DNA of 33,540 nt from Acidobacteria bacterium ADurb.Bin340 (lineage in GTDB: Bacteria; Acidobacteriota; Holophagae; Holophagales; Holophagaceae): the NCBI GenBank assembly GCA_002068835.1, contig MWBB01000005.1:1-33540 (forward strand), in the 5' to 3' direction. The notes under the pieces were generated by a model. The model ran no database searches. It saw only the letters and a program-made list of their open reading frames with translations, and was not told the origin of the DNA. Below are positions 6,262 through 23,311 of this stretch, in pieces. Within the stretch, counting starts at the first letter, position 1. Every line of letters starts with the position of its first letter. Position numbers and translations under genes: made by a program.

Positions 6262-6339
6262 TCGCATGCCTCCGCGCATGGAAGCCGGGAAGGGGCAGGC
6301 CGAGCCGTGGGCTGGGTTCCTGCACCGCTCCCTCGGCGG

Positions 6340-6540
6340 TTGGGAAGATCCCTGGACCGGTCTCCGGGCTCGCGCGCGGCAGGTTCCAGTGGAACCCCCG
6401 GTTCCTTCCCGAGGCATCGCCTCAGTGGTTCCGGCCAAGCCTCCCGATTCCTCGGGGCGCACACCGTTGCGGGGCAGCGCAGGATTCGCACCTGCTTCCC
6501 GACACCCAGGGCGGATGTCGAAGGGACCAGCCTCCCATGC
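6340..6540 (-). promoter_or_regulatory. Cobalamin (B12) riboswitch upstream of btuB
   Basis: Read on the minus strand, the leader contains the highly conserved cobalamin riboswitch core, with GGGAAGC, GTGCGAATC, then GCTGCCCCGCAACGGT (about 6463-6500), and downstream the B12-box-like GAGCCCGGAGACCGGTCC (about 6354-6372). These blocks and their order are diagnostic of the class. It ends about 80 nt before the receptor start, so it should turn the transport operon off when adenosylcobalamin or a related corrinoid is plentiful. Boundaries are approximate because I did not fold the RNA. No long U-tract follows the last helix, so control of translation initiation near the GGAGG at 6269-6273 is at least as likely as termination. 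Confidence 0.93.
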
Positions 6541-6579
6541 CCGGATCCCCCGGGCAAGGAAGGCCATCACAATCACGCC

Positions 6580-7197
6580 GGTGCAGGGTGCGATCCGGGG
6601 CAGAGCAGCCCGACCTCAGGCGAGCGGCAGGTTGTGGTAGCGCAGCACTGCGCGGTTGGGGCCGAAGACTTCCAGCTTCGTGAGGCCGAAGGGTGCCCCG
6701 TCCGCAAGGTCGAGCCGGAGGCGATGGCCGCGCGGGAAGCACCCTGCGGTGCAGGGTGCGATCCGGGGCAGAGCAGCCCGACCTCAGGCGAGCGGCAGGT
6801 TGTGGTAGCGCAGCACCGCGCGGTTGGGGCCGAAGACTTCCAGCTTCGTGAGGCCGAAGGGTGCCCCGTCCGCAAGGTCGAGCCGGAGGCGATGGCCGCG
6901 CGGGAAGCACCCTGCGGTGCAGGGTGCGATCCGGGGCAGAGCAGCCCGACCTCAGGCGAGCGGCAGGTTGTGGTAGCGCAGCACCGCGCGGTTGGGGCCG
7001 AAGACTTCCAGCTTCGTGAGGCCGAAGGGTGCCCCGTCCGCAAGGTCGAGCCGGAGGCGATGGCCGCGCGGGAAGCACCCTGCGGTGCAGGGTGCGATCC
7101 GGGGCAGAGCAGCCCGACCTCAGGCGAGCGGCAGGTTGTGGTAGCGCAGCACCGCGCGGTTGGGGCCGAAGACTTCCAGCTTCGTGAGGCCGAAGGG
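6580..7197 (-). repeat. Four tandem 168-bp repeats duplicating the cobC 3' end
   Basis: Units start at 6581, 6749, 6917 and 7085 with an exact 168-bp period; the fourth is incomplete (about 3.7 copies). The copies are identical apart from one base in the first (AGCACTGCG instead of AGCACCGCG). On the minus strand each unit holds the last 25 codons of cobC plus its stop (intact in the gene at 7120-7197), about 35 bp of 3' flank, and a roughly 50-bp linker not seen elsewhere in the window. At each of the three internal junctions there is a perfect 9-bp inverted repeat (GCACCCTGC/GCAGGGTGC, loop of 3) near 6740-6760, 6908-6928 and 7076-7096. The array lies between cobC and the btuB riboswitch. 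Confidence 0.95.
7076..7096 (-). terminator. Hairpin after cobC, repeated three times
   Basis: A perfect 9-bp stem with a 3-nt loop begins about 25 nt after the cobC stop codon. The same hairpin recurs 168 and 336 bp further on because of the tandem repeat; the last copy keeps only one arm. Only a short TTCCC follows, so strength as an intrinsic terminator is uncertain. Confidence 0.45.
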
Positions 7198-7689
7198 CTG
7201 CCAGGCCAGATCCAGGGCGCGCTCCAGGCCCAGCCCCAGGAAGTGGGCCAGGATGGCTCGCAGGGGACCCCCGTGGGCCAGCACCAGCGTGGACTGCTCG
7301 CCATCCAGGGCGCCCTGGACGGCGAGCAGGGCCCGGCTGGCGCAGCGGGCGAAACTCTCCCCCCCGGGCGGCGTGCCCAGGACGGGATTCTGGAAATAGG
7401 TTTCGGCGCCGGGAACCTGATCCCAGGGCAGGCCTTCCCATTCCCCGAACGCCTGTTCGCCCAGGTCCTTCAGCACGAGGCAGGGCAGGCCCAGGTCCAG
7501 CGCATGGACTCGCGCCCGCTGAAGTTCCGAGGTCAGCACCCGCTGAATGCCCAGCTGCTGAAGGTAGGCTTTGACCGAGGGCCAGGCCGCCTGTCCATCG
7601 GCGTTCACGGAGAGATCCAGGCGCCCGAGGGGGGCGCCCGAGGCGCTGGCGGAGGTGGGACCGTGGCGGAGGAGAAAGAGCGGCGTCAC
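7120..7689 (-). CDS. cobC: Alpha-ribazole phosphatase / histidine phosphatase family
   Basis: 189 aa phosphoglycerate-mutase-like phosphatase. The catalytic RHG motif is at residues 8-10 (FLLRHGPT), a GEWEG acidic motif lies mid-protein and the second histidine is in LAHGGPLRA, as in CobC. CobC removes the phosphate from alpha-ribazole phosphate or adenosylcobalamin phosphate in nucleotide-loop assembly. The GTG start at 7689 overlaps the cobS stop as GTGA, so the pair is probably translationally coupled, and the neighbour supports the substrate. A different histidine phosphatase substrate is possible by sequence alone. The last 25 codons and the stop occur three more times downstream as part of a tandem repeat; only this copy is joined to the gene body. 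Confidence 0.88.
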   Translation of the reverse strand: MTPLFLLRHGPTSASASGAPLGRLDLSVNADGQAAWPSVKAYLQQLGIQRVLTSELQRARVHALDLGLPCLVLKDLGEQAFGEWEGLPWDQVPGAETYFQNPVLGTPPGGESFARCASRALLAVQGALDGEQSTLVLAHGGPLRAILAHFLGLGLERALDLAWQPFGLTKLEVFGPNRAVLRYHNLPLA

Positions 7690-20552: not shown

Positions 20553-23311
20553 GGTCCGGGGCCCTGATCCTGGCCCTTGTGCTGGCATCGGGGCCTGTGG
20601 GCCTTCGGGCCCAGGAGGACGCGGCCGTGGTTCCGCTGGAACTGCCCCGGATCGAGGTGATTCCTCCGGACTTCGTCTTCCAGTTCCGGCCCCGGGTCGA
20701 GGTGCCGGGAAGGCCCACGGTGGCCCTGGCCTTGAGCGGAGGTGGTGCGCGGGGCGTGGGCCACATCGGCGTCTTCCAGGCGTTGGAGGCCGGCGGCTAC
20801 CCGGTGGACGCCGTGGTCGGCACCAGCGCGGGTTCCCTCTTCGGAGCCCTGTGGGCCTGCGGCTTTTCGGGCCGCGAGATGGAGGGCCTCTTCGAGCGCA
20901 TGGATTTCAACCGGGCCTTCCTGGACCCCCTCGTGCGGCAGCCCGGCAAGACGCTGGATGAGGATGAAGCTGAGAACGGAACGCTCATCGGGGTGCAGGT
21001 GGAGGCGGGGCTCCCCACCTTCGCTCTGGGGCTCCGTTCCGGCCGGGAGATCCAGCGCAGCCTGGAAGGCCTGCTGGCCCGAGGCGCCTACTTCTCCGGG
21101 GGTTCCTTCGATCGCCTGAGGGTGCCGTTCCGGGCCGTGGCCACCAACCTCCAGACCGGGCAGGGAAAGGTGTTCGATCGAGGGGATCTGGTGGAAGTGC
21201 TGCGGGCCTCCATGGCGGTGCCCGGGGCCTTCCGGCCCGTGGTCATCGAGGGGCAGCAGTTCGTGGATGGCGCCCTGGTGGAGAACCTACCCGTCCTTGT
21301 TTCCCAGCGCACCTTTCGGCCCAGCCTGACGATCGCTTCGGATGTTTCCACGCCGCTGAACGACCAGCCCACCACCAATTTCTTTTCCGTGACGGCCCGC
21401 AGCCTCGATCTGGCCATCGAACAGCGCCAGCGCGAAAGCCGCGAGGCTGCCACCGTGCTGGTGCAACCGGAGCTCGCGGGGGCGGATTTCTTCGATTACG
21501 GGAAGCAGTTGGCCGCTCTCGTGAAGGCGGGCCGCGAGGCCTTCGCCGCCCGGGAACCGGCCCTCCGCGCGGCCATCCTCAAGGCCTTCGGGGACGAAAC
21601 GCCGCTGCCCTTCGATCGGGTGCATGTGCCCAACGTCCATCAGCTGGATCCAGCCCTGAAGGCGGTTCTTGCAGAGCTGCTGCCGGAGGGGCGTCCGGTG
21701 CTCAGGGTGCGCCTGCTGGCCGCGATGCAGCAGGCCATCGTGCATGGCCACGCCCGCGCGGCCCGCGCGGAGGTGATCCCTTCGCCCGAGGGGCCCCGTC
21801 TGAGGATGATCCTGGACGCCTTCCCCGACGTGAGCGGCTGGGAGGTGGAAGCGCCGGATCCCTGGCGGAGGGGCCTGGAGCAGGAACTCCGGGCCGAGCT
21901 GCCCTCCGGGGCTCCCTTCAACCCGGCCCGCTTCGGCACCGTGCTGAACCGATGGGTCCATCTCATGGCTGCGGAAGGAGCGCCGCTGGCGGATGCCCGA
22001 GGTTCCGGTTTCGATGAGGCCACGGGCCTCATCCGGGTGGTCATCCGGGAACCGAAGCTGGGGGCCATCGAGGTGCGGAAGGGGCGCAAGGAGGACGAGG
22101 CCTACCTCGTGCAGGCGATGCAGCCCTTGCTGGGGCGGCCGCTGCGCACCCGCGAACTGCGCCAGACCCTGGACATGGCGGAGGAACGGCTGCACCTCTC
22201 CGAACTGCACTACCTGCTTCGGCCTTCCTCCGGCGTTCCCGAGGGTTCGGAAGCGACCCTGGTCCTGCTTCCCGTGCCCGCTCGCAGGCTCACCTTCGAT
22301 TTGAGCCTGGGCTACGAATCCACACTGGGAGGCGAAGTGGGCCTGCGTTTTTCGGCCCTGAACCTGGGAAACCGTCCCGTGGGTTTGGAAGTGGTGGCGG
22401 CCCGCAACCGCCTTCAGCGGGGCGCCTCGGCGGCCCTTCGGGTTCCCCTCTTCGGAGATCGTCCGGGAGCGGGTGTCCAGGTCTGGGCCAACGTGTTCGA
22501 GCAGCGCCTGGATACTCCTGTTCTCTTCCCCCTGCAGGAAGGCTTCGCGGACACCCTGGACCTGAAGGTGAAGAGTCGCGATCTGGGATTGGGGGGCTTC
22601 TGGCGGTTCGGGAATCAGGGCCAGGGACGGGTGGCCCTGGACGGCAGCTACCGCTGGGCGGCCTTCGCCCAGGAGGAAACGCTGGGGCGTCGCTCCCAGC
22701 GCTTCCTCCGCCTCAGTGCCGAATGGGACAACTTCGACCGCCACACCTTCCCTCGGCGTGGATTGATGCTACGGAGCCACTTCGGTGTGGGCGAATCCCT
22801 GGTCGGGCTCCAGCCCGAGGGGATGTTCCGGATGGCCTACCTGCGCGCCCGGGGGCTGACGGATTTCAGCGCTCGTCGTGCACCGCTGGGGCTGGGCCTG
22901 GATCTGGATGTGGAGTGGGGCTATGGCAAGGATCTGCCCCTGGATCGCTGGTGGGTGGTGGGTGGTCCCAGTTTCCTGGTGGGTTCCAAGTCCTTGGGCT
23001 TTCTGGCTCCCAACGTGCTGGTGGGCCGTTTCGGCGTGCCCTTCCGCATGAACGGACCCTTCGGGCTGTCTCTTCAGATGGTTCCCCGGCTGGATTACGG
23101 GCTCACCGGACGGACTTCTTCCGACCTGTTCCGGGATCAGCGGGGCCAGGGCGCAGGTCTGGTCATGCGGACCATGGTCGCCAAGTTCTATGTGGAGCTT
23201 TCCTACGGCTGGATGCGCACCCGCATGGCGGGCGAGCCCTGGACGCCTTTCCACGGCAGCTTCAACGCCCAGATCGGAACCCGCCCCTTCGATCTATGGA
23301 AGCGGCGCTGA
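20549..23311 (+). CDS. Patatin phospholipase with POTRA and outer-membrane barrel (type Vd autotransporter)
   Basis: 920 aa. A signal peptide (about residues 1-21, ending LRAQ) leads into a patatin domain: oxyanion GGGARGVGH at 64-72, nucleophile Ser93 in GTSAGS, and the catalytic Asp in FVDGALVENLPV near residue 239. A central region of about 300 residues follows, with at least one POTRA-like segment (GAIEVRKGRKEDEAYL onward). The C-terminal part is a BamA/TpsB-like barrel (YESTLGGEVGLRFSALNLG, then FDRHTFPRRGLML, and FVLELSY-like ending strands). This matches PlpD-type secreted lipases, which use their own barrel; PlpD is about 730 residues, so this one is longer. The ATG overlaps the rph stop as ATGA. 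The last 18 bases overlap the opposite-strand ubiD gene. Confidence 0.9.
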   Translation: MRSGALILALVLASGPVGLRAQEDAAVVPLELPRIEVIPPDFVFQFRPRVEVPGRPTVALALSGGGARGVGHIGVFQALEAGGYPVDAVVGTSAGSLFGALWACGFSGREMEGLFERMDFNRAFLDPLVRQPGKTLDEDEAENGTLIGVQVEAGLPTFALGLRSGREIQRSLEGLLARGAYFSGGSFDRLRVPFRAVATNLQTGQGKVFDRGDLVEVLRASMAVPGAFRPVVIEGQQFVDGALVENLPVLVSQRTFRPSLTIASDVSTPLNDQPTTNFFSVTARSLDLAIEQRQRESREAATVLVQPELAGADFFDYGKQLAALVKAGREAFAAREPALRAAILKAFGDETPLPFDRVHVPNVHQLDPALKAVLAELLPEGRPVLRVRLLAAMQQAIVHGHARAARAEVIPSPEGPRLRMILDAFPDVSGWEVEAPDPWRRGLEQELRAELPSGAPFNPARFGTVLNRWVHLMAAEGAPLADARGSGFDEATGLIRVVIREPKLGAIEVRKGRKEDEAYLVQAMQPLLGRPLRTRELRQTLDMAEERLHLSELHYLLRPSSGVPEGSEATLVLLPVPARRLTFDLSLGYESTLGGEVGLRFSALNLGNRPVGLEVVAARNRLQRGASAALRVPLFGDRPGAGVQVWANVFEQRLDTPVLFPLQEGFADTLDLKVKSRDLGLGGFWRFGNQGQGRVALDGSYRWAAFAQEETLGRRSQRFLRLSAEWDNFDRHTFPRRGLMLRSHFGVGESLVGLQPEGMFRMAYLRARGLTDFSARRAPLGLGLDLDVEWGYGKDLPLDRWWVVGGPSFLVGSKSLGFLAPNVLVGRFGVPFRMNGPFGLSLQMVPRLDYGLTGRTSSDLFRDQRGQGAGLVMRTMVAKFYVELSYGWMRTRMAGEPWTPFHGSFNAQIGTRPFDLWKRR

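Follow-up and report, generated by a model that had tools for sequence, protein, structure and literature searches.

Repeat array at the cobC locus

The window, by which we mean the whole stretch of 33,540 nucleotides analysed here, belongs to a draft Holophagaceae genome designated G000. A cobC gene with a GTG start is read directly on its minus strand, and the encoded phosphatase matches NCBIfam model TIGR03162 with an E-value of 8.6e-29, under that model's curated cut-off. CobS, a TonB-receptor Plug protein and a periplasmic binding protein are encoded around it. Tandem Repeats Finder (TRF) placed an array at the cobC end, at 6579-7202 (period 168, 3.7 copies, 99% match, score 1232), in agreement with the tandem repeat reported in the preliminary description. 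Another short tandem repeat occurs at 21751-21812 (period 32, 1.9 copies). The features of the locus are as follows.

7120..7689, minus strand: cobC (alpha-ribazole phosphatase-like), with the functional tail copy in its final 75 nt, 7120-7194
7027..7119, minus strand: element copy 1 plus spacer, 93 nt from the stop to the next tail; covariance-model core 7025-7110 (R1 match, 58.4 bits, E-value 5.5e-10)
6952..7026, minus strand: detached cobC tail 2, comprising 24 codons and the stop, without any difference from the functional tail
6859..6951, minus strand: element copy 2 plus spacer (R1 match 6857-6942)
6784..6858, minus strand: detached cobC tail 3, identical to the functional tail
6691..6783, minus strand: element copy 3 plus spacer (R1 match 6689-6774)
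6616..6690, minus strand: detached cobC tail 4, with one silent difference at 6649
6579..6615, minus strand: truncated fourth element, its first 37 nt, ending in the helix-1 loop and followed by native DNA (100% match to 1-37 of the 93-nt segment)
6338..6524, minus strand: cobalamin riboswitch, natively next downstream of cobC and outside the element (Rfam RF00174, 72.4 bits, E-value 3.4e-16)

Read on the minus strand, the cobC body and functional tail are followed by three rounds of a 93-nt segment plus a tail, then by 37 nt of a fourth segment and native DNA leading toward the riboswitch, which precedes the TonB-receptor gene. The proposed tandem duplication of the cobC tail is thus seen as four 75-nt tails, each consisting of FGLTKLEVFGPNRAVLRYHNLPLA plus the stop, and the riboswitch match places the array between cobS-cobC and the riboswitch, as first described. 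The earlier count of four near-identical units holds for the tails, which differ at a single base; the three complete intervening segments are identical and the fourth is only partial. The number of units could itself be an assembly estimate, because the draft genome consists of 448 contigs.

Structure of the element

The preliminary description had divided the DNA between the tails into a 3' flank and a 50-bp linker of unknown origin. Each of them is half of a single structured element, about 75-90 bp long and here termed E, and the linker together with the junction hairpin belongs to a dispersed element present in most genomes of the family. The perfect hairpin noted at the internal junctions is there (GCACCCTGC-ACC-GCAGGGTGC), but the junction does not create it: this hairpin is helix 1 of the family-wide element, and GCACCCTGC/GCAGGGTGC of G000 is replaced by GCACGCTGC/GCAGCGTGC, a compensatory change, in G023, a genome from another genus.

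The shape of E is a three-way junction, obtained by folding each of the G000, G023 and G060 recR copies, and compensatory changes were found at 12 of 19 pairs in an alignment of 22 copies. Among 95 distinct copies, 95.5% of base-pair cells were kept, double changes numbered 336 versus 106 in shuffles, and the covariation score was 0.472 versus 0.121 in shuffles and at most 0.044 with partners slid, figures that lean towards the model because this alignment was fitted to it. The sequence that copies at unrelated loci have in common is confined to the stretch between defined ends (GACTAC...CCCCGT in the main subfamily). Pairing with covariation is seen for the outer stem CCCC(C)x...yGGGG, which lies inside these ends; the outermost GACTAC and CCCCGT are not inverted repeats. 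E has no coding capacity. A scan of window positions 6500-7300 with 4227 Rfam models gave zero matches up to an E-value of 1, and membership of E in a known Rfam family was rejected.

Two further arrangements were observed. At L199 (G060:C1:653500-654550) an element-like segment is nested in the helix-2 loop of another element. At L038 (G004:C16) the 5' end of a macB-like gene is repeated twice around a 69-bp hairpin segment other than E, and the hairpin GCACCCTGCCCCGCAGGGTGC comes next; this segment perhaps represents a related element family.

Distribution of the element

Parts of the 93-nt segment match many places across the family. The pattern CCCCGGATCGN{40,70}CGGACGGGGC was found at 33 places in 18 genomes, and the reversed control pattern at none. 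Extending the proposed search for the linker and unit in other genomes with a covariance model yielded matches in at least 63 of 77 Holophagaceae genomes, with at least 25 in the richest; both figures are minimum values, as scoring was confined to the best candidates. In a phylum sample of 247 genomes, matches were limited to Holophagaceae and three genomes of one other family. True members in the named collection come from Geothrix (terrae, paludis, limicola, rubra, campi and fuzhouensis) and other Holophagaceae/Acidobacteria. A scan of 84,980 species returned matches beyond Holophagaceae/Acidobacteria that are taken as chance, since they have neither helix 1 nor direct repeats. Carriage of E by phages was rejected: the sole match on a viral contig has no helix and no direct repeat. 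The open-access literature on Geothrix and Holophagaceae yielded no earlier description of E or its gene-end arrangement; subscription papers were beyond reach and may hold one.

Gene-end repeats and polarity

Long direct repeats of the adjacent gene's end flank E in 36 of 43 sampled copies, at a score threshold of 20 or more that about 0.1% of 2,000 random positions reached. Weaker repeats are visible on inspection in several of the remaining copies. In the named collection, a repeat accompanies 68 of the 75 copies with a clear helix-1 stem, under a slightly looser score. Repeat length ranges from 21 to 220 bp, with a median of 65 (33 sampled copies). The longest, at L138 (G012:C99), surrounds an E that lacks a clear host gene.

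About 25 unrelated genes, many of them housekeeping genes, show this gene-tail arrangement. Targets identified by profile are MutL, RF1, RecR, MiaB, XerD, FtsK, RF3, CobC, superoxide dismutase, cupin, MacB/FtsX, M24 peptidase, XPB-type helicase, histidine kinase, alpha/beta hydrolase, GIY-YIG, Usp, GT9 transferase, ABC ATPase and helicase. The functional gene end lies 5' of E in 20/20 of these targets (chance under random orientation about 1e-6), a score for which the left-hand proteins were chosen for the profile scan and the right-hand frames judged by eye only. The detached copy starts within a few nucleotides of the 3' end of E.

Individual copies illustrate this range. A second E in the window's genome (L114/L203, G000:C8:16051-16124) lies at the 3' end of prfA (RF1), whose 82-bp tail is duplicated. 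At L149 (G010:C304) E sits at the 5' end of prfC, and the gene's functional start, MNIQQEIQRRRTFAI, is unlike the detached one, MNLLEQIARRRTFAI; the functional and detached starts reportedly differ likewise where ICE SXT integrates at prfC. One copy, L127 (G071:C1, about 2803365-2803443), has no direct repeats and is located inside an ORF6N-like gene (named by eye), where it is read in frame as 27 added codons free of stops.

Empty and filled sites

The recR site is filled in Geothrix genome G060 and empty in its close relative G066, where the tail and stop run into CCTTCCC. In G060 the 68-bp gene end is duplicated around the insert: the detached copy retains the native codons, stop and flank, while the last codon and stop of the functional copy are new and come from a 25-nt spacer preceding E. 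Such a new gene end is what integrases of larger elements might leave behind as attachment-site scars, in the manner of ICE SXT at prfC, and the restoration of gene ends from the element side and the presence of the prfC 5' end among the targets (L149) fit that reading as well. We nevertheless regard it as very unlikely, as one E is common to about 25 different genes, the copies examined have no cargo genes in the surrounding 1.5 kb or so, and the repeats are homogenised within genomes.

At xerD, G060 carries two units, the second with a decayed E and followed by a short native tail, and G066 and G099 are empty. Among 47 genomes of the genus Geothrix, pepP is filled in G003 (two units), G021, G065, G099 and G084. 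The insertion is decayed in G074 and may have been deleted from G060, G066 and G063, and most of the other genomes shown have an empty site. Besides these two genes and cobC, multi-unit loci were found at mutL (G066) and cupin (G094, G088 and G060). Copy-number variation at cobC is plausible, given that loci other than cobC have one or two units depending on the species.

For any given target gene, most species have no E there. This sparse occupancy weighs against the view that E and the detached gene end form a selected unit, namely a conserved regulatory RNA acting in stability, in attenuation or through a leader peptide. In favour of such an RNA, the structure is preserved by compensatory changes, also between species at the same cupin locus, and the spacers at miaB are similar in three genera. 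However, the targets have no common pathway, and E has the same orientation as the gene at 3' ends and the opposite one at 5' ends, which puts opposite strands of E in the transcript. A regulatory RNA thus appears an unlikely explanation.

The cobC site in related genomes

The 93-nt segment is also present in G023, with 120 of 147 bp matched (82%) without gaps. One G023 contig, on which the riboswitch lies downstream, breaks off within the unit, and the contig with cobC stops just before the tail; an array in this genome is inferred rather than read, as the evidence consists of contig ends. The insertion point is common to G000 and G023, with GGGGCACCC joined to TTYGGCCT. In G006, from the same genus as G023, the riboswitch follows closely after cobC and the element is absent, leaving an empty site. 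The unit, sought in relatives, is thus present in one and missing from another, and the earlier suggestion of a fresh duplication is doubtful, the same junction having been found in a different genus at 82% identity over the 147 bp compared. The idea that the linker is coding sequence in frame with cobC was rejected, because the changes between G000 and G023 are not at third codon positions (by eye).

These comparisons also bear on whether the extra units in the window are an error of repeat resolution. The fragmentation of the draft into 448 contigs and the near identity of the units would allow it. An orthologous unit in G023, where contig ends flank the repeat on both sides, and comparable structures in genomes assembled as one contig or obtained from isolates (G003 and Geothrix terrae, for example) make an assembly artefact highly improbable.

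The preliminary description had also suggested that stacked hairpins may insulate cobSC transcription from the riboswitch-controlled uptake operon (btuB). The array does sit between the two transcription units, and its hairpins are very stable (E folds at -42.8 kcal/mol). Nonetheless, an insulator is unsupported, since neither a promoter nor a terminator signature was found at positions 6300-7300. The arrangement extends well beyond B12 genes, to the 5' ends as well as the 3' ends of some 25 unrelated genes, and G006 keeps the cobC-riboswitch neighbourhood without the array. We see next to no likelihood of an insulating or terminating function, and a role in B12 regulation is not needed to explain the array.

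Probable local homogenisation and search for an enzyme

In G010, an identical 77-nt E occurs at two unrelated genes with unrelated flanks, and homology of these copies to the recR copy begins at GACTAC and ends at CCCCGT. Detached copies are at least as close to the gene end of their own genome as to the copies of other species in 16 of 16 cases at mutL, pepP, queE and miaB; at sodB and cupin the corresponding counts are 4/5 and 6/10. The miaB insertion recurs with a similar spacer in three genera, and the shortest copy (G012) begins at a different point. These data fit insertions that are old and have had their repeats homogenised locally, together with a new transposition now and then.

We also searched for an enzyme that might drive E. 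PF01797 (Y1/RAYT) occurs in 13 of 77 family genomes and is absent from the E-rich G099, G084, G062 and G009, and RVT_1 (PF00078) occurs in only 22 of 77 and is absent from many element-rich ones; RAYT/Y1 and reverse transcriptase were accordingly rejected as drivers, their presence not tracking E. A diversity-generating retroelement was discarded on the same limited occurrence of RVT_1 and because copies are nearly identical, with differences not confined to A (by eye). No larger cargo-bearing versions were found in the flanks of copies without a near direct repeat. Origin of the spacer from a donor locus was set aside, as no donor was found.

Origin of the array

Very probably, the array arose when the small non-coding E inserted at the 3' end of cobC with duplication of the gene end, after which the unit of cobC tail plus E expanded in tandem. 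E would insert near a gene end and the target would be duplicated, so that the gene would remain whole or receive a slightly altered end. The direct repeats could then let the unit of gene end plus E expand, contract and homogenise through slippage or unequal recombination, probably assisted by the hairpins of E. At cobC in G000 the unit would have grown to three complete copies plus a half, as read from the draft assembly.

Several points count against this explanation. The expansion step rests on a draft assembly. Symmetric target duplication predicts both orientations, and one alone is seen. Closely spaced direct repeats around a hairpin should often be lost, yet the insertions at miaB and other genes appear to persist across genera. 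The in-gene copy L127 has no direct repeat, and no enzyme was traced among the Y1 and RT families. Three candidate mechanisms remain: a transposase with sharp recognition of the 3' end only, a recombinase that circularises the gene end plus element at the element's 3' end, or the attachment-site scars judged very unlikely above.

More tentatively, E may represent a new class of mobile element, a possibility we advance with some reserve: a three-way junction of 75-90 bp that always faces outward from the gene end and duplicates 21-220 bp of it by a mechanism not known for any transposase, the duplicated gene ends then long kept alike by local homogenisation.

Comparison with known systems

Like prokaryotic MITEs and Rickettsia palindromic elements, E is short, non-coding, dispersed and structured, with direct repeats at insertions (PMC10969869), and as in the Rickettsia elements at least one copy (L127) is in frame within a gene. 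Unlike both, it is a GC-rich three-way junction with sharp but dissimilar ends. MITEs typically have terminal inverted repeats (about 4-30 bp), leave target duplications as short direct repeats and have a related autonomous transposon in the same or related genomes. In E, by contrast, the direct repeats are long, and the duplications consist of 21-220 bp of gene end with fixed polarity. No parent transposase was found among the Y1 and RT families surveyed or the cargo checked near copies.

REP/BIME elements with RAYT transposases are likewise palindromic, extragenic, present in many copies and at times clustered (PMC2817692). Y1/RAYT genes, however, are missing from most E-rich genomes. To our knowledge, gene-end duplications are not a feature of REP elements.

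IS1549 and IS1634, of the IS1634 family, produce long variable direct repeats of 8-514 bp on insertion, for which no mechanistic model existed as of 2008 according to the excerpt of PMC2266710. The repeats of E are similarly long and variable (21-220 bp, and 68 bp at recR against the empty site). The same excerpt describes full insertion sequences with a transposase, which E does not have, and reports no gene-end polarity like that of E (PMC2266710). Symmetric target duplication does not predict this polarity.

Integrative elements at gene ends include SXT at prfC and SGI1-like islands at trmE or dusA, and in the extracts from PMC8409611 they resemble E in having direct repeats at the gene end and a gene kept whole by element-side sequence. 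As described in those extracts they bring their own genes and an integrase and have a preferred site (PMC8409611), whereas the tiny E occupies about 25 genes.

If the proposed explanation is true, many gene ends in one bacterial family are doubled around one folded element. Successive gene tails in such genomes should then not be annotated as tandem genes, and short-read assemblies may break at the gene-tail repeats that flank E. The family would also offer a natural system for the origin of long, variable target duplications, and for the question of how direct repeats so near each other avoid being deleted and yet evolve in concert.
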